Source: Variovorax sp. 54 (GTDB lineage Bacteria > Pseudomonadota > Gammaproteobacteria > Burkholderiales > Burkholderiaceae_C). Taken from it: DNA of 64,000 nt. Of the stretch, positions 1,783 through 21,559 are shown one piece after another (within the stretch, counting starts at the first letter, position 1; the number at the start of each line of letters is the position of its first letter). The notes under the pieces are model-generated. The model searched no databases, was not told the origin of the DNA, and was given only the letters and a program-made list of their open reading frames with translations. The translations under genes and the position numbers were made by a program. Location: contig NZ_PEFF01000001.1 in NCBI RefSeq assembly GCF_002754375.1, positions 6,527,501 to 6,591,500 of the forward strand, in the 5' to 3' direction.

Positions 1783-2340
1783 TTACGGCACCAGAATGGC
1801 CGACCCCGAGCGGCTGCGGGCTGCGATGTCCGCATGCGCGGTGGCCGCGGCCGACAGCGGATAGCGCGTGACATCGATCTGACCGAACACACCGGAGCGC
1901 AGCGCATCGAACACTGCGCGCGTCGCTTGTTCGCGCCCATCGCCTTGCAGATGCTGCGCCATCGGGCCGCCGAGCACCTTCACGCCGCGCGCCGTGAGCG
2001 AGGGCGCATCGATCTCGGGTGCACCGGAGGCCGCACCGATGTTGACGATCGTCCCGCCGTCGCGAACGCTCGCTTGCGAGGCCGCGAACGTGGCCTTGCC
2101 GACGAACTCGTAGACGACATCGACGCCTTGCGGCGCGATCTGGCGGATCTGCGCTGCGAGGTCCGCGTCGCTGGAGACCAGGGGGTGGTGCACGTCGGCG
2201 CGCAGGGCGTCGCGCTTGCCCGCACCGGCGGTGCCGATGACCGTGGCGCCCCGGGCCTTGGCCCATCGCGCGAGCAGCAGGCCGACGCTGCTGGATGCGC
2301 CCTGCACCAGGATCGTCTCGCCGGCCTGCAGGCGATGGAA
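1783..2340 (-). pseudogene. Quinone oxidoreductase / zinc-independent alcohol dehydrogenase, 3' remnant
   Basis: The minus strand encodes the C-terminal part of a QOR-type medium-chain dehydrogenase. It has a Rossmann start LQAGETILVQGASSSVG, then VVYEFVGK, and GGTIVNIGAASG, ending SGSAILVP. Homology runs from about 2340 downward and then meets a stop codon at 2347-2349. About half of a normal 320-residue protein, including the GroES-like N-terminal domain, is missing, and I found no N-terminal half elsewhere in the window. The break coincides with the first coding sequence of the TniA-like transposase, so the gene was probably lost by an insertion and deletion at the edge of the mobile region. 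Confidence 0.85.
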
Positions 2341-2348
2341 AGCAAGTC

Positions 2349-3830
2349 ATGGCGGCGAACCCTCGCGAGGCCGCCTACCTGATCGGGGGCAAGTCCCTGG
2401 CAGACAAACTGAAGGCCGGTGATGGTGTGGACCGCCCGGTTCATCGGCCCTACCAGCGGGTTGAGATGGACGCTCACGTGCTAAATGGGCTCTTCTGTAT
2501 TCTGATCCCGCACCCGCATGGGGGGCACGTTCCAAAGATCGTTCGCCGACTCTGGGTAATCGTCATTGTGGAGGTCTACAGCCGGGCAGTGCTCGGGTAT
2601 TACTTGAGCCTACACCCAGAGGTCAACAAGGAGGACGTGCTCAAGGCGATCAGATCCGCCCTGACACGCTGGCAGCGCAGGGCACTGTCGATGGGCAGGG
2701 GCAAGTATGAAGACGAAGCCGCGTTGCCGTCGAGGCACAGCGAGCGCTACGTCGGCCTCTGCTGGGACGAGACGAGCGTAGATGGCTCGCTGGCGGAAAC
2801 CTGCAAGACCGTCAAGGACGTGCTACGCAATGTCGTTGGCTCTGTGATGGTGGACCCAACGCAAGGCTATGCAGCGCGGCGGCTGAAAGACGATCGGCCC
2901 TACATCGAGACCTTCTTCCGGACGCTAGGAGAGCAGGGCCTGAATCGGATGTCGAACTCGACTGGGAGCAAACCTTCCGACAAGCGCGGGCGCAATCCCG
3001 AGCAGGTCGCGCTCAACAGTCAGTTCCAATTGGAGTACCTTGAGGATCTCCTGGATGTACTGATCGCGAACTACAACGCAACGGAACACGCCGGGCTGGC
3101 CTACAGATCACCACTACAGACCCTGGATTTCGCGACAACCCGCGAGGAGGCTCCCGCCATACGCCGCGCAGACGCATCGCTGGTGAGCGGTCTGCTGAGT
3201 GTGCGAAAGATGTGCACAGTGAAGGGGGGATATCGAACGGGACGCCGACCCTACGTCAACTTCTACGGCGCCAGCTACAGCGGCGAATTTCTGATCGATC
3301 GCCATGACCTGGTGGGCACGAAGATCTGTGTGACCAGCCATTTGGAAAATGACGCGCGTGTCGCGCGAGCCTCCACGGCCAGCGGTCATTCACTGGGCAT
3401 TCTTCGTGCCGCGCCACCATGGCATGGCTTTCCGCATTCTCTGGCTATACGCAGTGCGATCCGGACGTTGTTGAATCAGCGCAAGTTCCGGCTTGCGTCC
3501 GGCGGTGACGCCGTTGCGGCGTTCCTTGAGTACGTTGAGTTGTTGCCAGGCAAGAAGCTGCCGCCCCATCCCGCCTATCTAGACATGCGCAGAATCATGG
3601 AGGAGGTTGCACAGCGCAGGCAGGAAATCGGCCGTGATGACCAAGTCGAGATGGCCCGAGGTCGCCTCGCCGAAGGCCGAGAGTTTCGGGCACCACTTAC
3701 AGGAGGCAATGCTGGCCACGTCGCGGAACCTCTCTCGGTACAAGCGCAAGGCAGCCCCATCCCCGCGCCAGAGCCAGCAGTCTCTTCCCGGAAGAGCCTC
3801 CCGATGCACCGAATGGCCGCCAGTGAGTAG
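2349..3830 (+). CDS. TniA/TnsB-like DDE transposase, N-terminally truncated
   Basis: The catalytic half of a Mu/TnsB/TniA-type transposase that cuts and joins element ends. The RNase H fold starts at RVEMDAH, the first catalytic Asp. It continues through VEVYSRAVLGYYLSL and WDETSVDGSLA, where the second Asp lies, to DDRPYIETFFRTL with the catalytic Glu. A Mu C-terminal beta-barrel region (YRTGRRPYVNFYG) and a basic, proline-rich tail that could contact the ATPase follow. Full-length relatives usually carry about 200 more N-terminal residues with helix-turn-helix domains that bind the terminal repeats. Those are absent, and the frame runs straight into the broken oxidoreductase gene at about 2340. 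The ATG at 2349 is only a convenient start. The protein is probably unable to recognise ends. TniB starts 4 bases downstream. Confidence 0.8.
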   Translation: MAANPREAAYLIGGKSLADKLKAGDGVDRPVHRPYQRVEMDAHVLNGLFCILIPHPHGGHVPKIVRRLWVIVIVEVYSRAVLGYYLSLHPEVNKEDVLKAIRSALTRWQRRALSMGRGKYEDEAALPSRHSERYVGLCWDETSVDGSLAETCKTVKDVLRNVVGSVMVDPTQGYAARRLKDDRPYIETFFRTLGEQGLNRMSNSTGSKPSDKRGRNPEQVALNSQFQLEYLEDLLDVLIANYNATEHAGLAYRSPLQTLDFATTREEAPAIRRADASLVSGLLSVRKMCTVKGGYRTGRRPYVNFYGASYSGEFLIDRHDLVGTKICVTSHLENDARVARASTASGHSLGILRAAPPWHGFPHSLAIRSAIRTLLNQRKFRLASGGDAVAAFLEYVELLPGKKLPPHPAYLDMRRIMEEVAQRRQEIGRDDQVEMARGRLAEGREFRAPLTGGNAGHVAEPLSVQAQGSPIPAPEPAVSSRKSLPMHRMAASE

Positions 3831-3834
3831 CGCC

Positions 3835-4857
3835 ATGGCTCGACTACCTCGCAAAAAAAACAACAGTCGGCTGCCCCCGCATGTCGACCGCAACCATCCC
3901 GTTCTATCGCAAAGGTATGCCATCCACACACCAGCGATCGAGGGTATGGCCAAGGTAATAGGCGATTGGATCGCCCAGAAAAAGACGGGGGGAGTCATTT
4001 TTGGTCCGTCTCGCTTTGGTAAGTCCAAAGCAATGCAGTGGTTCTTGCGTGACCTCTTGAAGCAGCGCTTCGGCAAGGATATTCCACTGCACATGTGGAC
4101 GCGGACACCAGATATTCAAAGCAGTCAGGCCGAATTCTGGAAATCTCTGTTGAAGGCGACCGGTCACCGGTATGCGAAAGACAAGAGGTCTTGGGGTGAG
4201 CGTCGAGACATGCTCGTAGAGCATCTAATTTCCCTAGCCAAACGCTGCGAGGGAAACTTCGTGGCACTGCTCATCGACGAATCACAGGCGTTGACCCTCA
4301 GGGAGTGGAATTGGCTTTTGGGGCTACAGAACACACTGGACCGTGAAAACTATCGGTTTAGCGTCTACACAGTTTCGTCGCACCAGATGGGCTACCAGTA
4401 CGAGCTGATGGCTCACTCCGACCATCCACATGTGGCCGCCCGGTTCATGGTTGCACATGCCCCCTTCTCGGGGCTGACCTCGGAAGTCGAGATCAAGTTC
4501 GTGTTGGAGGGGTACGACTTCGCGAGTGAATGGCCCAAACACTCGCGCGCGTCCTATTTAGCGCACTTCGCGCCCGACGCACATGCGCGCGGGAAGCGCC
4601 TGGCAAGTTGTGCCTCGACCGTGTGGCAAGTGATGAACGCGCTACTCCCGGAGGACTACGGTGGAGAGGCCAACTTTCCCATGCAACATCTTGCGCTCTC
4701 GGTGGAGAAAGTCTTGATGAATCTGGCTCACGGGGAAGATTGGGATGACGCAACGGGCGAGGAAGCCTGGCTGGAGGCATTTGCCGAAACGCAGTTCACC
4801 GACCACATGCGCCTGATTTCCGCAGAACTGCCGCGGCGGCGACGCAAGATGGCCTGA
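3835..4857 (+). CDS. TniB/TnsC-like AAA ATPase
   Basis: A 340-residue P-loop ATPase. Walker A is GPSRFGKS at residues 57-64 and Walker B is VALLIDESQ around residues 142-151, both typical of TniB/TnsC regulators. In Tn5053/Tn7-type elements this protein forms ATP-dependent filaments on DNA, links the target selector TniQ/TnsD to the transposase, and gives target immunity. A basic N terminus (MARLPRKKNNSR) and an RRRRK tail could bind DNA. The ATG at 3835 is chosen because it follows the transposase stop by 4 bases; a longer in-frame extension would lie inside the transposase gene. It is followed by the TniQ-like gene after 2 bases, which suggests one operon. Confidence 0.85.
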   Translation: MARLPRKKNNSRLPPHVDRNHPVLSQRYAIHTPAIEGMAKVIGDWIAQKKTGGVIFGPSRFGKSKAMQWFLRDLLKQRFGKDIPLHMWTRTPDIQSSQAEFWKSLLKATGHRYAKDKRSWGERRDMLVEHLISLAKRCEGNFVALLIDESQALTLREWNWLLGLQNTLDRENYRFSVYTVSSHQMGYQYELMAHSDHPHVAARFMVAHAPFSGLTSEVEIKFVLEGYDFASEWPKHSRASYLAHFAPDAHARGKRLASCASTVWQVMNALLPEDYGGEANFPMQHLALSVEKVLMNLAHGEDWDDATGEEAWLEAFAETQFTDHMRLISAELPRRRRKMA

Positions 4858-4859
4858 AT

Positions 4860-6686
4860 ATGGTGTCACACACAGGCATAGAAAGCGGGGCCACGAACAT
4901 GGCCTCACTCAGTCGTGATCGACGATATCGCCGCGTCACTTGGACACCAGGGAGCATCCAGCCGTATGCCTCAGCCTGGATCACCGTCCAACGGTTCATT
5001 CTCTTGAACAGGCCGAGCCAGCAATCGTTCGAAGCCGATTTCATACTGAACGACGGAAGCGGCAAGACCATGTCCCTGGATTGCGCAATTTCGCCGGGTC
5101 GCTCACTGCGGTTGTCGCGATTCTGCCGGGTAACCGGTGACTCTGTACAGGCCTTGAGGTGGTCACAGGTAGGGCGGTACCCTGGCAGCCTACAGCCTCT
5201 CTTCGGTCGATTCGTGGTCTGGTGCCGTGCATGTTTGGGGGAGGGCTTCCACAGCGTTCTGTACTCGCTGTGCGGCCTCCGAATTTGCCCTGTGCACGCA
5301 CTACCGCTCGAGTATCGGTGCCGCTGCGGACTGACAATTCCTCATGGGAAGCTCGGGAGCCCTTTTCGCTCCCCGGGGCGCTGTCGCTGCGGATTCGTGT
5401 TCCTCGAGCTAGGAGCAGCCAGAGACCCGAAGCCCAACCCGGCGCGCGATGTTGTGCTGGGCGATCTCTCTTGCTGGCTTGAAACTGCGGCAAGCCGGTT
5501 CTGGTTCGACCTGCGAGATCAGTGGTCACACTACCCGAGTATCGAGCGGTATCTCGTGCATGCCCAGCACTGGGCGCAAGCCATGCGCACACCCCACCCG
5601 CCCACATGCTGGGCGATCACGGAGTTGCCCGAACTGCGCTGCGAGCGTTGGGCATGCTCGGCACACGAATTCGGCGGGCAAAGGGAGAACGTAGGGAATG
5701 ACGATATTGCGCCGACATTGGAGTTCGAAGCCGCCAGCGCGGTGTTCAAGTCGATCAAACGCCACTTGCTGCGCCACGTGCTCGATGGTCAAGTACGTCG
5801 ATGGATCGAGGCATTCGCCCGATCCTCGGACGAGACTTTTATTCGGCGCCAACTGACCTCGAACGCAAACGCGCATGCACAGGACGCGTGGTGCCTGTTG
5901 CTGTGGTGGCAATCCTGCGTATGGAGCATCGGACTGCGCGATTGGTTCCGTCGCCAGGCGTACCAGATGCCACCGCAATGGGAAGTCAAGGCCGTCAACC
6001 TGCTTCCGTCAGAGGCATCCATGCATCCGCTGGACATGAGATTTCAAGGGAGGTTCCGGCGTTGGATCCTCAACTGGACGACTGCCGGAAGTTTGCTGAT
6101 GCTTTGGGTAGCGGCGCGAAGGGCCGTGGCACGCGCGATGGCCAATGGTGAGCCGGTGTGGGGGCGGTGCGCGATCGGCGAACGGGTGTTTCCGGCCTGG
6201 AGCGTGGCAAGAGACAGCAATGGGAATTTTGTGCTGTGCATGGATGCACCGCACGAAGCCTGCTGGTCCCCGCGCAGACGGCAAGACAAGGTGACAAGAG
6301 TTCAACGCGTGAATGAACATCGGCTGCTGCGGAGTGAGCGGATCGCATCGCAGTGTGCGACGGTTTGCGCCTGGTATGACGCAGACTCGCCAGCATGGAC
6401 GATGGGTCCTGGGCTTCAGCTGGGTATTGCTGACGACGCACGCAAGCTGCGGCTGCTCGGCAAGACGAAGTGCTTCTTCGTGATCTTCGAGCTGAAGGGC
6501 CTGGATGGCGCGCGATTCGCGGCGCAGAGCCTGACTCATCCCGTCGCTGCCAGTGCGAAGTCTGCGAAGGGCGCGATCAACGGCCTACGCATGGCGCTGG
6601 CTCGTTGGTCTGAAGACGGGGCCGCATCGGTGTTGACCCAGCCGCAGAAGTGTGAGGCACCAGATGAGAACATCCCGATTCCTTGA
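4860..6686 (+). CDS. TniQ/TnsD-like zinc-finger target-selection protein
   Basis: A 608-residue protein with a TniQ-type zinc-binding block at about residues 120-180: WCRACL, then RICPVHALPL and YRCRCG, with a further RCRCGF pair. TniQ proteins normally have CPxCL, then CPxH and CxxCG. The remainder is helical and rich in Trp and Arg, with no domain I can name. Family knowledge says TniQ/TnsD proteins recognise the target site and recruit the TniB/TnsC ATPase. This one is longer than the roughly 400-residue TniQ of Tn5053 and nearer TnsD in length, so a sequence-specific target is possible. The start at 4860 is 2 bases after tniB; a second ATG at 4899 is also possible. Its end overlaps the next gene by 23 bases. 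Confidence 0.75.
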   Translation: MVSHTGIESGATNMASLSRDRRYRRVTWTPGSIQPYASAWITVQRFILLNRPSQQSFEADFILNDGSGKTMSLDCAISPGRSLRLSRFCRVTGDSVQALRWSQVGRYPGSLQPLFGRFVVWCRACLGEGFHSVLYSLCGLRICPVHALPLEYRCRCGLTIPHGKLGSPFRSPGRCRCGFVFLELGAARDPKPNPARDVVLGDLSCWLETAASRFWFDLRDQWSHYPSIERYLVHAQHWAQAMRTPHPPTCWAITELPELRCERWACSAHEFGGQRENVGNDDIAPTLEFEAASAVFKSIKRHLLRHVLDGQVRRWIEAFARSSDETFIRRQLTSNANAHAQDAWCLLLWWQSCVWSIGLRDWFRRQAYQMPPQWEVKAVNLLPSEASMHPLDMRFQGRFRRWILNWTTAGSLLMLWVAARRAVARAMANGEPVWGRCAIGERVFPAWSVARDSNGNFVLCMDAPHEACWSPRRRQDKVTRVQRVNEHRLLRSERIASQCATVCAWYDADSPAWTMGPGLQLGIADDARKLRLLGKTKCFFVIFELKGLDGARFAAQSLTHPVAASAKSAKGAINGLRMALARWSEDGAASVLTQPQKCEAPDENIPIP

Positions 6687-8556
6687 AGTCAGGCCGCTGC
6701 ATCGTGGGCATTTCGCTTTCATGCGCTCAGTGCTACAGGGCGTTGAACCCGCAACGAGCTGGAACATCCACCTGCAGCTGGAAGGAATAAGAGTCAACGA
6801 TCAAATGATCCATGAGCTCATGTCTCGGATTTGCTGCGAGTGCGCCGCAGCGGCGCGTCGCGACGGGAAATATCACGTGTCACGTCTACTGCGACTCAAT
6901 CTGTTGGGGCCGGATGGCGAAGACAGTGCTTTCGGCGCCGACCGAGAGGCTGCGACAGCCTCGCCCGAGGAGCTAACTCATCATCTCCCGACGAACCCTA
7001 GGAGCAGAGCGCACAAGCGGGCGCGTCTTCTTCATCGTCAGTTGGAAGCACTTCGAGATTTCGAAGCGAAGATGCTTGCAATCATGTCGACCAAGGACTC
7101 CGTACGGAAGTGGCTTCCCGCAAAAACGGCCAAGCTGCTAGAAGAAGCTGGCGTGGGCACTTTGTCGCTGTTGGCCGCTCGCATTAATTGCGGTGACGTC
7201 CGATGGTGGCGCGGGGTACGCTCTGTAGCCCACGTGAAAGCAACCAGGATTGCCGACTGGGCATACATGCACGCGACGGACATTGGCATCCGTATCGTGC
7301 CGACACATGGCCTGGCTGCCGGTCTGTCCGACTGTCGAATCATTGAGCAGCCATCTACTGCCTTGGTGCCTCTCGAGCGGCTTCTCGTACCCTGGAAGCT
7401 TGACGGCCACGACGGTGCATTTCGCCTGCCTTCGAGTGAATGCACGCTGGAGGCGGACAACGACCTCCAGGCGATCCAAGCATGGCTCGACAATACGCAG
7501 AACGCCTCGGGCTCAACCGGGACCTTTCGCTCGTACCGCAGAGAGGCCGAACGGTTGCTTCTGTGGTGCGTCCTTGTTAGACACAAGCCCGTCTCGTCCT
7601 TGACTCGCGCAGATGTGAGGGCCTTCAGAGACTTTCTGATGGACCCGCCGGCTCATTGGTGCGGGTACCGCGGAAGCCGTCGTGACTCGGTCCAGTGGCG
7701 GCCGATGGAAAAGGGCTTGAGCGCTCCCACTTTGGGTCAAGCGCTAACCATCATCGGAGCGCTGTTCAAGTACCTGGTCACACACCAGTATGTCTACCAC
7801 CATCCGTTGATGGCCCCTCGCGTCCTTGTCGCCATACGCCCCGATGCGCGGCTGCAGCGGACGCTGACGTTCGAGCAATGGGAATGGATCAGCCGCGATC
7901 TCATTGCAGAACTCGAAGCCAAGGCCGCACATGAGCCGACCCGGCGTCGTGCGCGTGCCATCCGATGGCTCTACGCTACCGGTCTGTCGCTGTCGGAATT
8001 GGTCTCCGTGCAATGTGGCGCGTTGCGACTGATACGCTTCGCTCGAGATGATGGGGAGCCTGAAAGTGCCTGGATGGTCCGGGTCGTTGACAAATACCAG
8101 CGCACTCGTGACGTGCCGCTGCCGCGGCAGTTGATTGTCGAACTAGGCGACGAACTCGCCGCTGCGGGCCGGCCGCGTGCGCCGACCGCACGTGTGAATG
8201 CACGAGTGCCGGTGGTCGGAAGATTTTCCGCCGCTGACGGGGGCGTTCCTCCGCCGTGGACCGCAGGGGCACTGTACAAGTCAATAAAAATTTTCATGGA
8301 GGCTTGTGCCTCCCACATGAACAGCCGGGACGCAATGCAGGTTCGGCAAGCGTCCGCCAGTTGGTTGCGCAACACGCACAGCCTGCACGCAGTGCTTGGG
8401 CGAAGCGATGGTGAGCGCAAGCCTGTTCCTCCCCAATACGTTGCGATGAACGTGGGCAGCCACTCGCCGTGGTTGGTTGCGACGCACCAGCCCCTGACCG
8501 AAGCGCAACGTCAGAAAGCGATGAAGGATTTCTGGCCGCCAGACGGCACACTATGA
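6664..8556 (+). CDS. DUF3701-type tyrosine recombinase homologue with degenerate active site
   Basis: A 630-residue protein with an N-terminal region like DUF3701 (RGHFAFMRSVLQGVEP near residues 14-30), a SAM-like core-binding domain (GTFRSYRREAERLLLWCV) and a full-length tyrosine-recombinase catalytic domain. Aligned with the intact enzyme at 8779-9948, most catalytic residues are replaced. The box I Arg is Ser442 (TGLSLSEL), the box II His is Ser566, the Arg is kept (Arg569), the His/Trp position is Ser599 and the nucleophilic Tyr is His608. The frame is otherwise uninterrupted, so the protein is probably made and may bind DNA without cutting it. The ATG at 6664 lies inside the end of the TniQ-like gene; a GTG at 6652 is an alternative. 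Confidence 0.8.
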   Translation: MRTSRFLEVRPLHRGHFAFMRSVLQGVEPATSWNIHLQLEGIRVNDQMIHELMSRICCECAAAARRDGKYHVSRLLRLNLLGPDGEDSAFGADREAATASPEELTHHLPTNPRSRAHKRARLLHRQLEALRDFEAKMLAIMSTKDSVRKWLPAKTAKLLEEAGVGTLSLLAARINCGDVRWWRGVRSVAHVKATRIADWAYMHATDIGIRIVPTHGLAAGLSDCRIIEQPSTALVPLERLLVPWKLDGHDGAFRLPSSECTLEADNDLQAIQAWLDNTQNASGSTGTFRSYRREAERLLLWCVLVRHKPVSSLTRADVRAFRDFLMDPPAHWCGYRGSRRDSVQWRPMEKGLSAPTLGQALTIIGALFKYLVTHQYVYHHPLMAPRVLVAIRPDARLQRTLTFEQWEWISRDLIAELEAKAAHEPTRRRARAIRWLYATGLSLSELVSVQCGALRLIRFARDDGEPESAWMVRVVDKYQRTRDVPLPRQLIVELGDELAAAGRPRAPTARVNARVPVVGRFSAADGGVPPPWTAGALYKSIKIFMEACASHMNSRDAMQVRQASASWLRNTHSLHAVLGRSDGERKPVPPQYVAMNVGSHSPWLVATHQPLTEAQRQKAMKDFWPPDGTL

Positions 8557-8778: not shown

Positions 8779-9948
8779 TCAGGGCGTACGCCAGCCAACA
8801 CGGTGCCCAGCCGCCGTGGCGTCGTGACGGGCATCGTCTTCGGTGTGCAAATAGATGCTGGTCGTGCTGATGTTGGCGTGCCCCAGGTTGTCTCGGACTA
8901 CTTTTAGGTCGACCTTTTCACTCTGGTGGCTTCCGGCTGTGTGACGAATCCAGTGCGTCGACGCCTGCTCGAGATGAGTCGCCGTAGCCTCGAACTCGGG
9001 GCCACGCTGCCGCAGCGCCGCAGCGGCGGCGTGCATCACTCCCTTGACGAGTTCGTGAATGGCGCTCCGCGCCATCGGCTTGATCGGGGCGATCAACGTC
9101 ATCACCAGTGGCGTGCCTTCGCCCTCCAATGGGAGCGGGCTCAAGGCATGGGCCTTGCGGTAGCGCATCAATTCGGCCATCAATTCGCCCGTAGCTGGAA
9201 CCAGTCGGGTCTTGCTGCCTTTACCGGTGATTTCGAGCCACCAGCGCTCGCGCCCATCGGTGCCGCGCCGACTGAAGAATCCGCCCATGCTGGCATCGCA
9301 GATCTCGGACACGCGCAGCCCGCCGATGTACAGCACTGAAAACAGCCATCGGCAGCGCGATGCGTGCAGCTTTTCACGTTCGCTACTTATGGGCATCGCT
9401 TCGATCGCTGCCTTCACCACGTTCCAATGCTCCTCTGGCAAAAAGCGGTTCACACGAGGTGCGGTCTGCCGGCGCCTGCGACGGCTCAGCGCCAACGGAT
9501 TGCCGGCCAGGTATCCGGCCTCCACGAGCCAAGAGAACATCGCATTGAGGATCGACAGCGCCTGACGCAGGCTCGATGGGCCAAGTGGGCCCGCAAAGGG
9601 TCGCCAGCGTGGCGAGTTGCGGCCCGGCTTCTGACCCGGCGCCATGACCCAGCGCTCGGCCGGCTGCGGGTCCCCGAGGAAACGCTGGTAGAGCAGCAGG
9701 TCCTCGTGCGTAAGGTCAGAGAGGGCTGCGCCGCGCTGCAGGACGCACCACAGCAGGAGACGTTCGGCTTCCTTGCGATAGCTGGAGAGGGTGGCGGGTG
9801 AGTCAGCGTAGCGGGCCAGCCAGGCAAGCACGGCCGAGCGGTCATCGAGCGCGGCCAACTGCGAGGGCAAACTGGCGCGATTGCGGCCGCGGCTACCGTC
9901 CAGGTGGGCCGGAGCCATCATTTGATCGAGGCTGACGAGTGCATTCAT
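8779..9948 (-). CDS. Tyrosine recombinase, TnpS-like resolvase
   Basis: A 389-residue tyrosine site-specific recombinase with every catalytic residue in place: Arg212 (GGLRVSEI), Lys243 (TGKGSKTR), His332 and Arg335 (THWIRHT), His357 (NLGHANIS) and Tyr366 (SIYLHTED). The N-terminal core-binding domain is closely related to that of the degenerate recombinase at 6664-8556 (SYRKEAERLLLWCVLQRG), so the two are paralogues. It is transcribed away from a KfrA-like coiled-coil gene. This divergent arrangement matches the tnpS-tnpT cointegrate-resolution pair of Tn4651-type transposons, which I infer is its role here. The intergenic region carries a candidate recombination site. An integrase function cannot be excluded. 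Confidence 0.85.
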   Translation of the reverse strand: MNALVSLDQMMAPAHLDGSRGRNRASLPSQLAALDDRSAVLAWLARYADSPATLSSYRKEAERLLLWCVLQRGAALSDLTHEDLLLYQRFLGDPQPAERWVMAPGQKPGRNSPRWRPFAGPLGPSSLRQALSILNAMFSWLVEAGYLAGNPLALSRRRRRQTAPRVNRFLPEEHWNVVKAAIEAMPISSEREKLHASRCRWLFSVLYIGGLRVSEICDASMGGFFSRRGTDGRERWWLEITGKGSKTRLVPATGELMAELMRYRKAHALSPLPLEGEGTPLVMTLIAPIKPMARSAIHELVKGVMHAAAAALRQRGPEFEATATHLEQASTHWIRHTAGSHQSEKVDLKVVRDNLGHANISTTSIYLHTEDDARHDATAAGHRVGWRTP

Positions 9949-10063
9949 GCAGAACTACGTGCAGTAGAAGGGCATAGTCAATTTTATGGACATTAGAGTA
10001 GTTATGTCCATGGATGAACCATTGCATAAATTAATTCAACACATTACGTTGTATTATTTATGA
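9949..10063. promoter_or_regulatory. AT-rich divergent intergenic region with inverted repeats, candidate resolution site
   Basis: This short region is clearly more AT-rich than its neighbours. It holds ATGGACAT at 9986-9993 and its exact inverse ATGTCCAT at 10004-10011, separated by 10 bases, and a second pair CAAC (10037-10040) and GTTG (10048-10051). Tyrosine recombinase cores consist of two inverted arms around a short spacer, and in Tn4651 the recombination site lies between tnpS and tnpT. The region must also hold both promoters, so an operator for the KfrA-like protein is an alternative reading. Confidence 0.55.
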
Positions 10064-11110
10064 ATGAATACCGAAATCGAACTCCAGAGCGACATCGAAG
10101 CCCTCAGGGGGCGATTTACGGAGACCAAAGACCTCTATCGCGAGGTTTGCGCGTTGCTGTTCTTCCGCTATGGCATCACCCCCACGGCCAGCAAGCTGTA
10201 CCAGTTCGTGCGCAAGGGCTCGATGAGCGCTCCAGCAGAGGCGTTGGCCCAATTCTGGGAGGATCTGCGCAGCAAGGCGCGCGTCGAAATTGACCATCCG
10301 GATCTGCCGCCTGAACTCAAAGAGAGCGCAGCGGAAGCCATCGCCGAGCTGTGGCGCCAGGCCACGGCCGCCGCACGCCAGGAGTTGGCGGTGATGCGCT
10401 TGGAGGACCAGGCCGCGGTCGAGCAAGCCCAGGGAGAGGAAACTCGGGCTCGCCAGGCGGAAACTGAGGCACTGGCCAACGCCGATACCCTGCGTCGGCA
10501 GCTGAGCAAAGCTCAGGAATCGCTCCAGCAGCGGCAAACGGACCTGGAGGCAGAGTGGCGCGCCCACGCCAGCGCCGTTGCACGCTTGCAGGAGTTGCAG
10601 CGCCACTTCGAGGAGGCGCGCAATCAGCAGGAGCGGGCTCGAGCAGATTTCAGCGTCAACTTAGGCAAGGCGCGAGAGGCCGTGGACGTCGCGAACGGTC
10701 GTTCGGACGCTGCCGAGCGGCGCGCACTGCTGGACATCGACCAGGAGCGTCAGGCTCGGATCAGAGTCGATAAGCAGCTCGAGGCTCTGCGCAGCCAACA
10801 GGCGCAGACCGAAGGCCGCTATCGCGAGAACATGCTGGCTCAGGCTGATGCGATTGCGCGGCTGCAGGTCAAGGCCGATGCAACAGAAGAGTCGCAACGG
10901 GAGCTCACCGCCAGCAACCGAAGCCTTGCCACCGAGCTTCAGGCCGCGCGGGAACAGCTGGCAGTAAGCCAGCAGGAAGCGCTGCAATATCGCGCTGAAG
11001 CGCAAACGTTGCGCGAGCTGCTGGATCGACTGTCGCCATCTCAAGAAGTGTCACAACAGGAAGTTCCTGCTTCGAAGCCCTCAAGGGTCAGCGCACGTAA
11101 GGCCCGATAG
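10064..11110 (+). CDS. KfrA/TnpT-like DNA-binding coiled-coil protein
   Basis: A 348-residue protein. Residues 1-120 fit the KfrA N-terminal DNA-binding domain (LFFRYGITPTASKLYQFVRKG, then a LAQFWEDLRSK motif). Residues 120-330 are a long Glu/Arg/Gln/Ala-rich coiled coil. The tail is basic (KPSRVSARKAR). KfrA proteins are autoregulated plasmid proteins that form filaments; TnpT, a similar coiled-coil protein, assists the TnpS recombinase in Tn4651. Divergence from a tyrosine recombinase favours a recombination-accessory role. An ATG at 10060 is in another frame; 10064 opens this one. A terminator follows 24 bases after the stop. Confidence 0.8.
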   Translation: MNTEIELQSDIEALRGRFTETKDLYREVCALLFFRYGITPTASKLYQFVRKGSMSAPAEALAQFWEDLRSKARVEIDHPDLPPELKESAAEAIAELWRQATAAARQELAVMRLEDQAAVEQAQGEETRARQAETEALANADTLRRQLSKAQESLQQRQTDLEAEWRAHASAVARLQELQRHFEEARNQQERARADFSVNLGKAREAVDVANGRSDAAERRALLDIDQERQARIRVDKQLEALRSQQAQTEGRYRENMLAQADAIARLQVKADATEESQRELTASNRSLATELQAAREQLAVSQQEALQYRAEAQTLRELLDRLSPSQEVSQQEVPASKPSRVSARKAR

Positions 11111-17325: not shown

Positions 17326-18033
17326 ATGAGCTTCGAAAGTGACTTCGAGAAAATGACGACAGCCGTGAAAGCGGCGGAAGACGAGATCGTCATGGCAGCG
17401 ATGTTCCACGAGACCTGGAAGCCCGCAGCATTCGACGAAGATCTGCGGGCTCGAATAGGCACCTCCTACGCAGCGCATTCGTTCAATATAGTCCGGATCG
17501 CACTGCGTCGCGAGATGATCCTTGCGCTCATGCGAGTCTGGGACAGAAGCAAAGAAGCCGTCCGGATGACTGCGATCGCCGAGAAGCTCAAGGACGAAAG
17601 GTTCTTCCAGGATCTTGTCGCCAAGCGCGCTGTGCGCCTGGGAATGGCTGCCTCGGGTGTTGAGGCCCTCCTGACAGAGGCCCTTGACCAGAAGCGCCAG
17701 GCTGTTCTCTCTCTAGTCAGGAAGTACGCCGAAGGGGGGCCTGGGCACGTGGCGTTCAAGAAAATCAAGGCACTTCGAGATGAGCGCTTAGCTCACAGGC
17801 AAGCTGTCGACGCCTCTGCCGCTAGAGACGACCCCGATGACAAGGAAGTAGAAGCTTTCTATGTGGACAGTTTGTCCGTGGTGACGTTCCTGTTGTCACT
17901 GGTGCTCGCCAAAGCTTTTGACCTCAACGAGGCGGGCGACGTTTATAGACACCACGCTAAATTCTTCTGGGCAGGTGCTCGAGGCGAACGCACAGAGGGG
18001 CATCCTAACTATCGCAAACCCACCGGAGAGTAG
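17326..18033 (+). CDS. AbiU2/HEPN-like protein
   Basis: A 235-residue all-helical protein. It resembles the AbiU2-type HEPN family: a helical N terminus with RIALRREMILALMRVWDRSK and a conserved ALRDERLAHRQ block at residues 149-159, where Arg151/Arg154 and His157 fit the HEPN Rx4-6H RNase signature. The C-terminal half ends in a hydrophobic helix VVTFLLSLVLAKAF. AbiU2 is a lactococcal abortive-infection factor and many HEPN proteins cut RNA, so a defence or toxin role is possible. No partner antitoxin such as an MNT nucleotidyltransferase is next to it, which weakens the toxin reading. It lies 165 bases upstream of the serine recombinase. Confidence 0.55.
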   Translation: MSFESDFEKMTTAVKAAEDEIVMAAMFHETWKPAAFDEDLRARIGTSYAAHSFNIVRIALRREMILALMRVWDRSKEAVRMTAIAEKLKDERFFQDLVAKRAVRLGMAASGVEALLTEALDQKRQAVLSLVRKYAEGGPGHVAFKKIKALRDERLAHRQAVDASAARDDPDDKEVEAFYVDSLSVVTFLLSLVLAKAFDLNEAGDVYRHHAKFFWAGARGERTEGHPNYRKPTGE

Positions 18034-18198
18034 GCCCCTCGTAGTATGGGAGTTGGTCACCGCTTCAGATTCATTTCCGACTTTCGACTGAGGGTTCATC
18101 GCGTTCGTGCCAAATCGGACTAGAGGTTCATTAAAACGTCACGTCTTCGACATATCTTCCCGAGGTCTCCGTAGACATCGTCGAGGTGGAGTTCCTGA

Positions 18199-19767
18199 GT
18201 GTCCGACCAACGCGCGGCGTTCATTGACGAGGATTTGAGGGAAGCCGCAATACCGGTAGCCCAGTACGTTCGCATGTCCACCGAGCATCAGAAGTACTCC
18301 ACTGAGAACCAGACGGCAGCAATATCCGAGTACGCAAGCTTGCATGGCATGCGGATCGTCAAGACCTACGAGGACTCCGGCAAGAGTGGACTGAACCTTA
18401 AGGGGCGCAACGGATTGCAGACGCTGTTGCATGACGTGGAGAGGCCGCTCCCAGGCTTTCAGGCGGTTCTGGTCTACGACATCAGCCGCTGGGGGAGGTT
18501 TCCCGATCCGGACGAAGCCGCGGCCTACGTGCATGCGTGCAAAAGCCGCGGCATTAGAGTGATCTACTGCGCAGAGCCCTTCAACAACGATGGGTCGCTG
18601 CCATCGACCGTCTTTATTGGCATCAAGCGCAGCATGGCGGCCGAATACAGTCGCGAACTCTCCGTCAAAGTCTTCGCCGGCGCATGCAACATCGTCAGAC
18701 ACGGATATCGTCAGGGCGGAGCGCCCGGCTTCGGCCTTCGGCGGCAACTTATTGACGAACAGCACAACGTCAAGGGGCTACTTCCGCGCGGGGAGAGGAA
18801 GAGCATCCAGACGGACCGCGTAGTGTTGGTGCCCGGGCCCCCAGAAGAGATTGCCCTCGTGCACCGCATCTATCGACTTTTTCTCCAAGAGAGTATGTCA
18901 GAGCGGCTTATCGCTTCCGTTCTCAATCGCGAAGGCTTGACCTCCGATGTGGGAATTCAATGGACGCGGGGCACCATTCATCAAATTCTCACCAACGAAA
19001 AGTACATAGGTCACAACGTCTACAACCGATCGTCTTTCAAGCTGAAGGTCCAACATGTGCGCAATCCACCGGAACAGTGGATTCGACGGGATGGGGCCTT
19101 CGAAGCAATCGTCCCAATTGAGATGTTCGCGCAGGCGCAAGCCATCATCGCAGAACGGTCGCTTCATTTGGACGACAGTCAGATGCTGAGGATGCTGCGG
19201 CAGACGTTGGAAAAACATGGCGCGCTATCTGGAATCCTGATCGATGAAGACGGCGATGCGCCTTCTAGCTCTGCTTACCGAAGCCGCTTTGGCAGCTTGC
19301 TTCGAGCCTACAGCCTGATCGGCTACACCCCTCGACGTGACTATGCCTACCTAGAGATCAACAAGGCTCTACGCAGGCGTCACCCAGAATTGATCAACGA
19401 GATTACCTCCGGCATTGAGAAGAATGGGGGATGGGCCGTGCGAAACGGTGCTACCGATTTGCTCACGATTAATGGCGAATTCACCATGACGCTGGTCATT
19501 GCACGATGCAAGCCAACAGCCGCGGGCACCTATCGATGGCGCATCCGGTTTGACGCAAGCCTTCACCCCGACGTAACGGTTGTGGCGCGCATGGACCCGT
19601 CGAACCGCAGTGCTCATGACTACTATGTTTTTCCGGCGATTGACTTCTCGACTGACTCGTTGCCGGTTCTTGAAAATAATGGATTCACGTTAGACGCCTA
19701 TCGTACCGATTCGTTGGAGATCATTTACCAGATGGCGGGGAGAGTGCCGCTTCCGGAGGTTGGATGA
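18199..19767 (+). CDS. Large serine recombinase
   Basis: A 522-residue serine site-specific recombinase. The N-terminal resolvase domain carries the nucleophile Ser27 in AQYVRMSTEHQ, followed by YEDSGKSGLNLKGR and VLVYDISRWGRF, both canonical. The recombinase domain follows (YRQGGAPGFGLRR, then GTIHQILTNEKYIGHNVYN). The roughly 200-residue C-terminal region lacks an obvious zinc ribbon or coiled coil of phage integrases. A GTG start at 18199 with AGGTGGAG 7 bases upstream is used. The stop overlaps the next start in ATGA, so it heads a three-gene operon with two ParB-like proteins. It probably integrates or excises the surrounding element, or resolves it. Confidence 0.9.
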   Translation: MSDQRAAFIDEDLREAAIPVAQYVRMSTEHQKYSTENQTAAISEYASLHGMRIVKTYEDSGKSGLNLKGRNGLQTLLHDVERPLPGFQAVLVYDISRWGRFPDPDEAAAYVHACKSRGIRVIYCAEPFNNDGSLPSTVFIGIKRSMAAEYSRELSVKVFAGACNIVRHGYRQGGAPGFGLRRQLIDEQHNVKGLLPRGERKSIQTDRVVLVPGPPEEIALVHRIYRLFLQESMSERLIASVLNREGLTSDVGIQWTRGTIHQILTNEKYIGHNVYNRSSFKLKVQHVRNPPEQWIRRDGAFEAIVPIEMFAQAQAIIAERSLHLDDSQMLRMLRQTLEKHGALSGILIDEDGDAPSSSAYRSRFGSLLRAYSLIGYTPRRDYAYLEINKALRRRHPELINEITSGIEKNGGWAVRNGATDLLTINGEFTMTLVIARCKPTAAGTYRWRIRFDASLHPDVTVVARMDPSNRSAHDYYVFPAIDFSTDSLPVLENNGFTLDAYRTDSLEIIYQMAGRVPLPEVG

Positions 19768-20660
19768 CAAATCAACCATCTCGCATCGAGATGATCTCGA
19801 TCGCCGAGATCGCCGTTGTAAACCCACGCATTCGAAATCCAAAAATTCATAAGACCATCACCGACAGCATTGAAAGAGTTGGCCTCAAGCGGCCGATCAC
19901 CGTCCGTCGTGTCCTAGTAGGCGAAGGTGAAATGCCTTATGCACTGATCTGCGGACAAGGACGGTTGGAATCCTGCAAATCCCTGGGTGAGACCGAAATC
20001 GCAGCGTTCGTCCTCGATGTTAGCGATGAGACTGGCCACGTCATGAGCATCGTCGAGAACATTGCTCGACGCACACCGAGCGCAGTTGAGACGATGGAAC
20101 AGGTTCGAGTTCTCAGGCAGCGCGGGTATAGCGACGCAGAAATCGCGACCAAGTTGGGTTGCACCTCCTCTTGGGTGAACAACGTGACCCACCTTCTGGA
20201 GCGCGGAGAAAAACGACTGCTGACGGCGGCGGAGGCCGGCCAAATCCCGCTAAACCTGGCCGTCAGCATCTCGCGAGCCAGCGATAACGAGGCGCAGAAA
20301 TTGCTGCTGGACGCATACGAATGCGGGGAGTTAAAAGGCCAAAAGGTGACGGTCGCTCGCAAGATACTGGGACAGCGTGCTCGCAGCGGAAAGAGCGGAT
20401 TTGACTCGTTGTCCAAGCCTCTGAATCGTCAGCCCATGACACCGGAAGACTTGGGAAAGCTCTATAAGAAGGACGTGGAGATGCATCGGAGAATCCGGAA
20501 AAAATCCGAGTACGTGCAGCAGTCGCTACTCTTGGTTCGACAGATTTTCAAGGAGCTATTTTCCGACAAGGAGTTTTGCGAAACCCTTGAAGCTGAGAAG
20601 CTAGCAACCGTTCCGCAACCTCTTGCCGATCTGCTGCTGTATGGAGGCCCAAGGCGATGA
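19764..20660 (+). CDS. ParB-like protein with RepB-type C-terminal domain
   Basis: A 298-residue protein with an N-terminal ParB nuclease-like/CTP-binding fold (NPRIRNPKIHKTITDSIERVG, RPITVRR, ALICGQGRLESCKSLG, IVENIARR) and a helix-turn-helix region GYSDAEIATKLGCTSSWVNN. The C-terminal part resembles the RepB plasmid-partition domain. ParB proteins load on a centromere-like site and bridge DNA, normally with a ParA ATPase. No ParA is present here. Its start overlaps the recombinase stop and its stop overlaps the next start, both as ATGA, so the three proteins are made in step. A role in recombinase control or element maintenance is inferred. Confidence 0.8.
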   Translation: MTNQPSRIEMISIAEIAVVNPRIRNPKIHKTITDSIERVGLKRPITVRRVLVGEGEMPYALICGQGRLESCKSLGETEIAAFVLDVSDETGHVMSIVENIARRTPSAVETMEQVRVLRQRGYSDAEIATKLGCTSSWVNNVTHLLERGEKRLLTAAEAGQIPLNLAVSISRASDNEAQKLLLDAYECGELKGQKVTVARKILGQRARSGKSGFDSLSKPLNRQPMTPEDLGKLYKKDVEMHRRIRKKSEYVQQSLLLVRQIFKELFSDKEFCETLEAEKLATVPQPLADLLLYGGPRR

Positions 20661-21559
20661 CGAAGGCGCCGCCGAAATCGATTCGCCTTGGATTTGAGCG
20701 GGACTGTATGGACATCCCACTGGACCAGATCCATTGTCTAGTCCCATTGCCGGCTAGCATCAAGGAATCCACAAAATATCGGCAGATCCGCAGTTCGATA
20801 CATGCGATTGGACTAGTCGAGCCTATTGTTGTCTCGCTTGATCGTTCGCAAGGACGCTCTTTCATTGTGCTCGACGGCCGAGTTCGGATAGAGGTTTTGC
20901 GAGAATCTGGGGTGCAGCGCGTCCTTTGCCTAATTTCCACTGACGATGAAGGTTACACCTACAACAAGCGGGTGAACCGCCTCTCCGTGGTGCAAGCGCA
21001 TCGCATGATTGTGCGAGCGGCCGAGCGGGGGGTCTCCGTGCAGCAATTGGCGGAAGCGCTCGATGTGTCGCCCGACGCTATCCGAGAAAAATTCCGTTTG
21101 CTTGACGGCATCTGCAGCGAAGCCGTGGCTCTGTTGGCCGACAAGCCAGCTACCTACGGCATGTTTCCTATTCTCAAGCAGATGAAACCATTCCGGCAGA
21201 TTGATGTCGCCCAGACCATGATCAATCTCGGAAACTACTCTATCAAACTGGCAGCTGCGATGCTGCAGAACACCCCTTCAGATCAACTCATGAAGGGGAC
21301 TGCAACCAAAACACAGCGAGGGGGTCCTGTCGACGCGATAGTACGTCTAGAGCGAGAACTGTCGGCCGTGCAAGCCGATACTCGGCTGCTTGAAGAAGAC
21401 TATGGGCCTGCAAGTCTGCAGCTGGAGATTATTAAGACTTATATCGGCACATCGTTGCTGGAGAACGTTGCAGTCGTTCGATGGCTAGCTAAGCAACGGC
21501 CCGAGTACCTGCAGCAACTGCAACGGATCGCGGATATTAGAGAACTACCCTTGCAATAG
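20657..21559 (+). CDS. RepB-like plasmid-partition protein (ParB superfamily)
   Basis: A 300-residue second ParB-superfamily protein. The N-terminal part has PLDQIHCLVPLP, YRQIRSSIHAIGLVEPIVVS and FIVLDGRVRIEVLRESG, then a helix-turn-helix with GVSVQQLAEALDVSPDAIREK. The C-terminal helical half (LLEEDYGPASLQLEIIKTYI) fits RepB partition proteins. It is paralogous to the preceding ParB-like gene but clearly diverged, which suggests the two form a heteromeric complex or bind different sites. It is the last gene of the recombinase operon. A repeat cluster that could be its binding site begins about 90 bases downstream. Confidence 0.8.
   Translation: MTKAPPKSIRLGFERDCMDIPLDQIHCLVPLPASIKESTKYRQIRSSIHAIGLVEPIVVSLDRSQGRSFIVLDGRVRIEVLRESGVQRVLCLISTDDEGYTYNKRVNRLSVVQAHRMIVRAAERGVSVQQLAEALDVSPDAIREKFRLLDGICSEAVALLADKPATYGMFPILKQMKPFRQIDVAQTMINLGNYSIKLAAAMLQNTPSDQLMKGTATKTQRGGPVDAIVRLERELSAVQADTRLLEEDYGPASLQLEIIKTYIGTSLLENVAVVRWLAKQRPEYLQQLQRIADIRELPLQ

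Follow-up and report, generated by a model that had tools for sequence, protein, structure and literature searches.

A full-length tyrosine recombinase without its active site, encoded directly after tniQ in a Variovorax transposon, as a candidate target selector

Introduction

The transposon Tn6022 encodes TnsF, an inactive tyrosine recombinase whose gene overlaps tniQ; Faure et al. (2023, PMC10293859) show that transposition needs TnsF and that the protein binds both TniQ and the target. TnsF has a zinc-finger region at its N-terminus, core-binding domains in tandem and only part of a catalytic domain, and the element that encodes it contains TnsA and inserts into comM; the authors propose that target-selector proteins are borrowed and later domesticated (PMC10293859). 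The subject here is IntX, a tyrosine recombinase of another type that has likewise lost its active site, and whose gene lies directly after the tniQ-like gene of a TniABQ (Tn7/Tn5053-like) transposon. It is found in a 64,000-nucleotide stretch of Variovorax sp. 54 (NCBI RefSeq assembly GCF_002754375.1, contig NZ_PEFF01000001.1, positions 6,527,501 to 6,591,500), which is called the window and in which positions are counted from its first letter. Among the papers listed by a literature search that covered few subscription papers, no inactive tyrosine recombinase employed by a TniQ-type transposon was seen besides TnsF, and DUF3701 was mentioned together with integrase in one paper.

Two further kinds of system bear on the comparison. 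Transposons of the Tn5053/Tn402 type are 'res site hunters', the res sites being those of serine resolvases. MrpR is a recombinase-fold repressor of SPbeta-type phages.

Results

The intX gene and its lost active site

The intX frame starts at GTG 6652 or at ATG 6664, the latter with GAGG 6 nt on its 5′ side, and its stop codon ends at 8556. The frame contains no stop codon and no frameshift, and the C-terminus of the product aligns with active relatives nearly to its end. The genes tniA, tniB and tniQ precede intX in this order on the same strand, and the four make up one tight operon. An earlier note on this DNA, made from the letters alone, had described a frame open over 630 codons and coupled to the TniQ-like gene; the open reading frame check agrees with its coordinates, and the coupling takes the form of a 23-bp overlap. 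That note had also read the box I Arg, the box II His and the His/Trp position as Ser and the nucleophilic Tyr as His, leaving one Arg and possibly the Lys. Alignments with TnpS, the active recombinase encoded nearby, and with other relatives bear this out: the catalytic positions read S-K-S-R-S-H in IntX against R-K-H-R-H-Y, and Arg573 and Lys481 are both present. The description of the gene at 8779-9948 (tnpS) as a paralogue holds only in part, as residues 236-579 match at 34% identity and the protein is of the TnpS type.

For the tree and some of the alignments, incomplete and near-identical sequences were first taken out. In an alignment of 100 sequences, IntX and TnpS included, all six catalytic residues are kept by 79 (72 RKHRHY and 7 RRHRHY, K to R being allowed), and the losses in IntX are therefore not a matter of chance. 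The other 21 include IntX and the recombinases of loci L181 and L225 described below, and also two partial sequences without the region and a further one cut by its contig end.

Domains, predicted fold and ancestry

Pfam recognizes DUF3701 clearly and a SAM-like core-binding domain weakly in IntX; it lists no Phage_integrase match, and NCBIfam matches of the XerC/XerD type lie far below the cut-off. Structure prediction, which the earlier note had proposed as a check, yields a recombinase fold in the AlphaFold model (predicted local distance difference test, pLDDT, 86.7), with the loop round the lost Tyr modelled at low confidence (block 601-610, pLDDT 53). The catalytic fold is present in the model, and structure matches extend to model residues 598-628. 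IntX thus has the DUF3701, core-binding and catalytic domains of the TnpR/DUF3701 subgroup. A zinc finger is not among the Pfam matches with E of 1 or less, and the N-terminal half aligns to DUF3701 integrases.

The nearest relatives of IntX, at about 40% identity, are DUF3701 integrases outside tni operons. Matches at E up to 0.001 occur in 69 of 101 genomes of the genus, the best by E-value after IntX itself being 41% identical. A tree of 98 sequences and 381 columns, from which two short sequences were excluded, puts IntX within a 37-tip group, mostly active plasmid-type integrases, with support of 0.995; its exact sister is poorly supported (0.13-0.28) and its branch length is 1.02. A ParA or ParB match adjoins 30 of the 45 distinct relatives that score at least 250 bits and whose sequence stretch is 9 kb or longer. 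This placement indicates that IntX descends from active plasmid-type integrases. Peptide patterns confirmed no IntX relatives in genome and viral contigs, and a search of plasmids for DNA relatives of 2340-8556 returned three records with short matches only.

Loss of catalytic residues also occurs outside tni operons. At least two of the six residues are lost in seven relatives (L079, L199, L200, L201, L202, L204 and L207), several of which have a shortened C-terminus. No tniQ is present in the stretches read of these seven, and parA/parB matches accompany all of them except L201. The L200 and L202 proteins have common losses and are 71% identical, with nonsynonymous divergence (dN) of 0.20 and synonymous divergence (dS) of 1.35 (NG86). 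An active pair, L184/L190, has dN 0.19 and dS 0.79, and L200/L202 is about as constrained; a dead lineage of this family is therefore under purifying selection without a transposon.

Uneven constraint along IntX

Conserved columns were defined on the 79 active sequences. IntX keeps 38 of 42 in the core-binding domain, 20 of 28 non-catalytic columns in the catalytic domain and 2 of 6 catalytic ones; active TnpS keeps core-binding columns at the same rate, 38/42. The core-binding domain differs from the rest of IntX at a Fisher p of 6.6e-4 in a set of 113 columns, a residue comparison from which two sequences without an HFAFMR-like motif were excluded. Retention in the N-terminal part is 20/33, and in the DUF3701 domain 13/21, with losses that include the helix-hairpin-helix region. 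This uneven pattern matches what a DNA-binding role would predict, and supports such a role. When neutral loss of 28 of the 113 conserved residues was simulated, a mean of 5.4 or 6.3 stop codons arose and 1 of 600 runs stayed stop-free; with a loss of only 15 of 113, 27 of 600 runs did. Simple neutral decay fits the stop-free intX poorly.

Other recombinases linked to tniQ

Apart from the window, 32 loci carry tniQ or tniB; L011 and L171 among them stem from a single record, and contig ends cut some of the others. A recombinase lies near tniQ in 8 of the 32, the tnpS/tnpT pairs of L014 and L170 not being counted. Two of these eight, L181 and L225, encode inactive recombinases that begin within the end of tniQ, with an AGGAG resembling a ribosome site before the start and overlaps of 8 bp (L181, GTG) and 23 bp (L225, ATG). 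The two proteins keep 29/42 and 28/42 core-binding columns and 12/34 and 10/34 catalytic-domain columns, respectively, and both are without the aligned tyrosine. They are 41% identical to each other, with saturated dS, and are not sister to IntX in the tree; they are a second, separate family of tniQ-overlapping inactive recombinases. No further inactive tniQ-linked recombinase was recognized among the matches listed for the L225 protein in 270 genomes. Sequence upstream of tniA is also conserved between the two loci (L181 5166-5260 and its counterpart in L225; 97 columns, 77% identity), and the open reading frame of L181 that contains it has no Pfam match.

Intact RKHRHY integrases lie about 130-310 bp after tniQ in L011, L173, L047 and L175, while L012 has a broken integrase near tniQ and L048 an intact, convergent one. 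In the first four loci the transposon right-end motif stands between tniQ and the integrase, and because it precedes each integrase, these appear to lie outside the transposon. L172 and L173 illustrate the point, as their transposons are almost identical (99% over 4.3 kb) and sit in different places; their homology stops between tniQ and the integrase and resumes only for a 34-bp stretch with a dyad. L011, L173, L047 and L175 seemingly place homologues with all catalytic residues in the position of intX, which would speak against the earlier note's view of a non-catalytic role; the objection falls away, since the right-end motif in the four located cases makes them look like insertion neighbours and not transposon genes.

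Transposon ends and dif-like dyads in related elements

The right end of L047, L013, L015, L016 and L175 is marked by a terminal motif resembling CAACTTTAGTTGTGTGAGCG, which appears in inverted form at left ends, or by a variant; for L011, L172 and L173, variants chosen by eye were taken as the right-end motif. A dyad of the type NNNNNNGATAA-N6-TTATCNNNNNN (GATAA-N6-TTATC) was counted 74 times across the loci collected; 52 of these occurrences differ in their letters, and a single shuffle of 2.5 Mb yielded 2. Among 98 distinct DUF3701-type or related integrase frames that have 700 bp upstream, 35 carry it close to their start, a count in which the pattern misses variants, the variant dyads of L011, L173 and L175 among them. 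The dyad is likely the cognate core site of these integrases. A dyad or variant is centred 49-53 bp beyond the right end in 7 of 8 elements (L013, L047, L015, L175, L011, L172, L173); it is absent at the right end of L016, and left ends have this dyad type in 0 of 9 cases. The centres were worked out by hand and the dyad test was made after the first cases had been seen; p-values for single ends range from 0.0007 to 0.26, and L011, L172 and L173 are related. The fixed distance and the shared core carry the weight of the pattern. For the copy in the window both ends were sought and none was found.

The tni operon, neighbouring genes and flanks

The features of the locus are collected in Table 1. 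Three intact TniA proteins, used as tblastn queries, match only from residue 198, 232 or 242 onward, and their N-termini find nothing below E 0.1 elsewhere in the 64-kb window. A full-length dehydrogenase homologue aligns only from its residue 178, at 2337-1852. Because tniA is without its N-terminal part, the copy in the window is immobile, although perhaps only recently so, as the frames of tniB, tniQ, intX, tnpS and tnpT are open. The window TniQ is collinear to its last residues with that of L169, its closest relative (37% identity); Pfam gives no match for the tniQ-like product at E up to 1. The tni operon of the window has no serine resolvase gene (tniR), and the serine recombinase found lies at 18199-19767. 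The element abuts the dehydrogenase gene and not comM; the best ChlI-domain match of the genome, a 635-codon open frame that is presumably comM, is at 3493703, far from the window. Two candidate ends were rejected: one at 21009, a single terminal-motif match without context, the motif of the related elements being otherwise absent, and a TGT-type candidate near L169 whose partner is absent both there and in the window.

Table 1. Features of the window around intX, with examples from other loci at the foot. Residue numbers of IntX count from the GTG start.
Feature	Position	Strand	Basis or remark
Zinc-binding dehydrogenase gene, C-terminal part only	1783..2336	-	Pfam ADH_zinc_N 1783-2307; abuts broken tniA
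tniA (TnsB-like transposase)	2340..3830	+	About 197 first codons of 675 missing
tniB (AAA ATPase, TnsC-like), frame intact	3871..4857	+	AAA_22 over cut-off; from 3871, 42-45% identity to TniB of L049, L050
tniQ-like gene, full length	4860..6686	+	Homologous to protein annotated TniQ; zinc-ribbon cysteines visible
tniQ 3′ end / intX start overlap	6664..6686	+	23 bp from ATG; sequence
intX, full-length inactive DUF3701-type tyrosine recombinase	6664..8556	+	
DUF3701 domain	7090..7287	+	Pfam PF12482, E 4.6e-11, residues 147-212; conserved glycines 182 and 193 replaced by D and A
Core-binding (SAM-like) domain	7435..7815	+	Conserved residues kept, 38/42
Catalytic-domain fold (predicted), active site lost	7846..8547	+	AlphaFold model; matches to XerH, Cre, XerD (VIA-align)
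Box I Arg replaced by Ser446	7987..7989	+	Alignment
Catalytic Lys481 retained	8092..8094	+	Alignment
Box II His replaced by Ser570	8359..8361	+	Alignment
Box II Arg573 retained	8368..8370	+	Alignment; invariant in 63-sequence alignment
His/Trp position replaced by Ser603	8458..8460	+	Alignment
Nucleophile Tyr replaced by His612	8485..8487	+	Alignment
tnpS-type tyrosine recombinase, all catalytic residues	8779..9948	-	Phage_integrase over cut-off; RKHRHY
Inverted repeat (10-bp arms, 6-bp centre) in the tnpS-tnpT gap, candidate recombination/resolution core	9986..10011		
tnpT-like gene (KfrA_N helper), divergent from tnpS	10064..11110	+	KfrA_N over cut-off
GATAA-N6-TTATC dyad, examples	L194 7375; L189 4643; L012 10850		
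DUF3701 integrases not in tni operons that have lost catalytic residues	L200 7245-9077; L202 3774-5672; L201 7759-9657		

The region 8779-11110 fits a TnpS/TnpT resolution module, with an active-looking recombinase, a divergent TnpT-like gene and a dyad between them; similar tnpS/tnpT pairs are found in L014, L037, L040, L041, L046 and L170. In L014 (8959-16239), on a Burkholderia aenigmatica plasmid, tniQ adjoins tnpT/tnpS and a HerA-DUF4297 defence pair. Farther along the window, 17326-21559 holds, in series, genes for an HEPN/AbiU2-like protein, a large serine recombinase and two RepB/ParB-like proteins.

A comparison of the flanks of L169, L181, L225, L049, L050, L180, L221 and the window gave a weak pair (L169/L221) and a real one (L180/window). 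Window positions 22753-64000 are collinear with a block of G782, a genome of another genus, that borders a TniABQ element (L180, L267) past the same ankyrin-repeat gene. This block may mark a common insertion region and thereby possibly lead to a chromosomal target. The far side of the L180/L267 element has no match to the left flank of the window within 60 kb, and its tni genes have the opposite orientation.

Discussion

Because position and loss of activity match TnsF, whereas a zinc-finger N-terminus, a partial catalytic domain and a comM target do not, the role that we would propose for IntX is that of a TnsF-like target selector of separate origin, a proposal whose chances seem to us evenly balanced. 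A TniABQ transposon would have captured a plasmid-type DUF3701 integrase into its operon directly after tniQ, and the captured protein would have lost strand cleavage and retained site recognition. IntX would then bind a recombination-site-like sequence, TniQ would dock on IntX, and TniB and then TniA would be recruited, on the model of TnsF in Tn6022. What is inferred here is that IntX binds DNA, contacts TniQ and guides the transposon to a target. A wider scenario is offered only tentatively: TniABQ transposons of the Burkholderiales may home on dif-like sites of plasmid-type DUF3701 integrases, at first by recognizing either the enzyme already present or its site, and on two or more occasions may have taken such a recombinase into the operon, where catalysis was lost and the protein became a dedicated target selector, IntX being one of these. 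If so, both steps of a route from a borrowed to an owned target selector would be visible.

Several observations weigh against these proposals. No target of IntX was found. The dif-like dyad is absent from the window and from the stretches of L169, L181 and L225, the host's own genome has one exact GATAA-N6-TTATC, and the flanks of L181 and L225 have no gene in common. The tniQ-intX pair was found in one genome only, and L169, the closest TniABQ cluster, is without an integrase after tniQ. With tniA truncated and no left end found, there is no current selection for transposition. The inactive relatives without tniQ in the stretches read mean that loss of catalysis need not signify transposon targeting, and the constraint on L200/L202 favours 'useful without catalysis' and weakens 'because of the transposon'. 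The earlier note's suggestion of selection for a DNA-binding or architectural role accordingly comes out with a mixed balance: uneven constraint, the near absence of stop-free simulations and the second inactive tniQ-overlapping family speak for it, and the truncated element, the missing target and the catalytic losses in relatives with no tniQ in the stretches read speak against it.

One rival reading is that IntX is a functionless captured integrase in decay, its frame still open through recent decay and G+C-rich DNA. The element is already broken at tniA, conserved residues are lost in the N-terminal part and the DUF3701 domain as well, the IntX branch is long, and degenerate relatives are not rare, as 21 of the 100 aligned sequences (IntX and the partial ones counted) are without at least one catalytic residue. 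Against this stand the retention of core-binding residues at the level of active TnpS and the rarity of stop-free frames in the neutral simulations at either level of loss, and we regard decay as rather unlikely. The adjacency could also be an accident, in which a TniABQ transposon inserted next to a plasmid-type integrase, like its relatives, and the two genes were then joined by a deletion. This is suggested by the right-end motif just before the intact integrases of L011, L173, L047 and L175, and the left side of the window's element shows that deletions occurred here. The tniQ gene is nevertheless collinear with that of L169 to the last residues, and the start of intX, preceded by a GAGG of its own, falls roughly where the relatives begin, which leaves no room for a right end between them. 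As overlapping tniQ-int pairs occur in L181 and L225 as well, accident strikes us as quite improbable. IntX might instead be a regulator, which would either repress the tni operon or act as an architectural partner and modulate resolution by TnpS/TnpT at the dyad close by. The intX gene overlaps tniQ and not tnpS, and IntX shares only 34% identity with TnpS and stands on a different branch of the tree, so that a shared site would not be expected; a regulatory role appears improbable, too, if somewhat less so than accident.

Comparison with known systems

As in the TnsF system of Tn6022, IntX is an inactive tyrosine recombinase whose gene directly follows and overlaps tniQ, here by 23 bp; unlike TnsF, it has a DUF3701 N-terminus and a predicted full catalytic domain, and its element is not in comM. 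It shares the order of DUF3701, core-binding and catalytic domains with the TnpR subgroup (DUF3701; Tn4401 TnpR; Smyshlyaev et al. 2021, PMC8138268), and its active relatives in this analysis have these domains too, but its catalytic residues are lost and its gene lies inside a tni operon rather than standing alone; IntX is related to this subgroup by descent, and not as an enzyme. With Tn5053/Tn402 the locus shares the tniA-tniB-tniQ module (tniA being incomplete), and its relatives have their ends at a fixed distance from recombination-site-like dyads; in contrast to Tn5053/Tn402, these dyads are of the tyrosine-recombinase type, and a dead tyrosine recombinase gene, not a serine resolvase gene, follows tniQ. 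The neighbouring tnpS and tnpT, divergent and with a dyad between them, resemble the TnpS/TnpT module of Tn4651-type transposons as described in PMC7157771, although in the window the module lies beside tni genes and not beside a Tn3-family tnpA. Phage repressors of the SPbeta type (SroF) likewise use the recombinase fold for DNA binding, but they repress transcription in phages and are only distant structural matches to IntX.

Two more recombinase lineages, IntX on the one hand and those of L181 and L225 on the other, thus seem to follow the TnsF route independently, and relatives of the element end next to sites of this recombinase family, which bears on how transposons gain new target selectors. 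If this is confirmed, TniQ-type transposons would repeatedly draw their DNA addresses from inactive recombinases, and the sites that these recombinases natively bind would predict where such transposons land.

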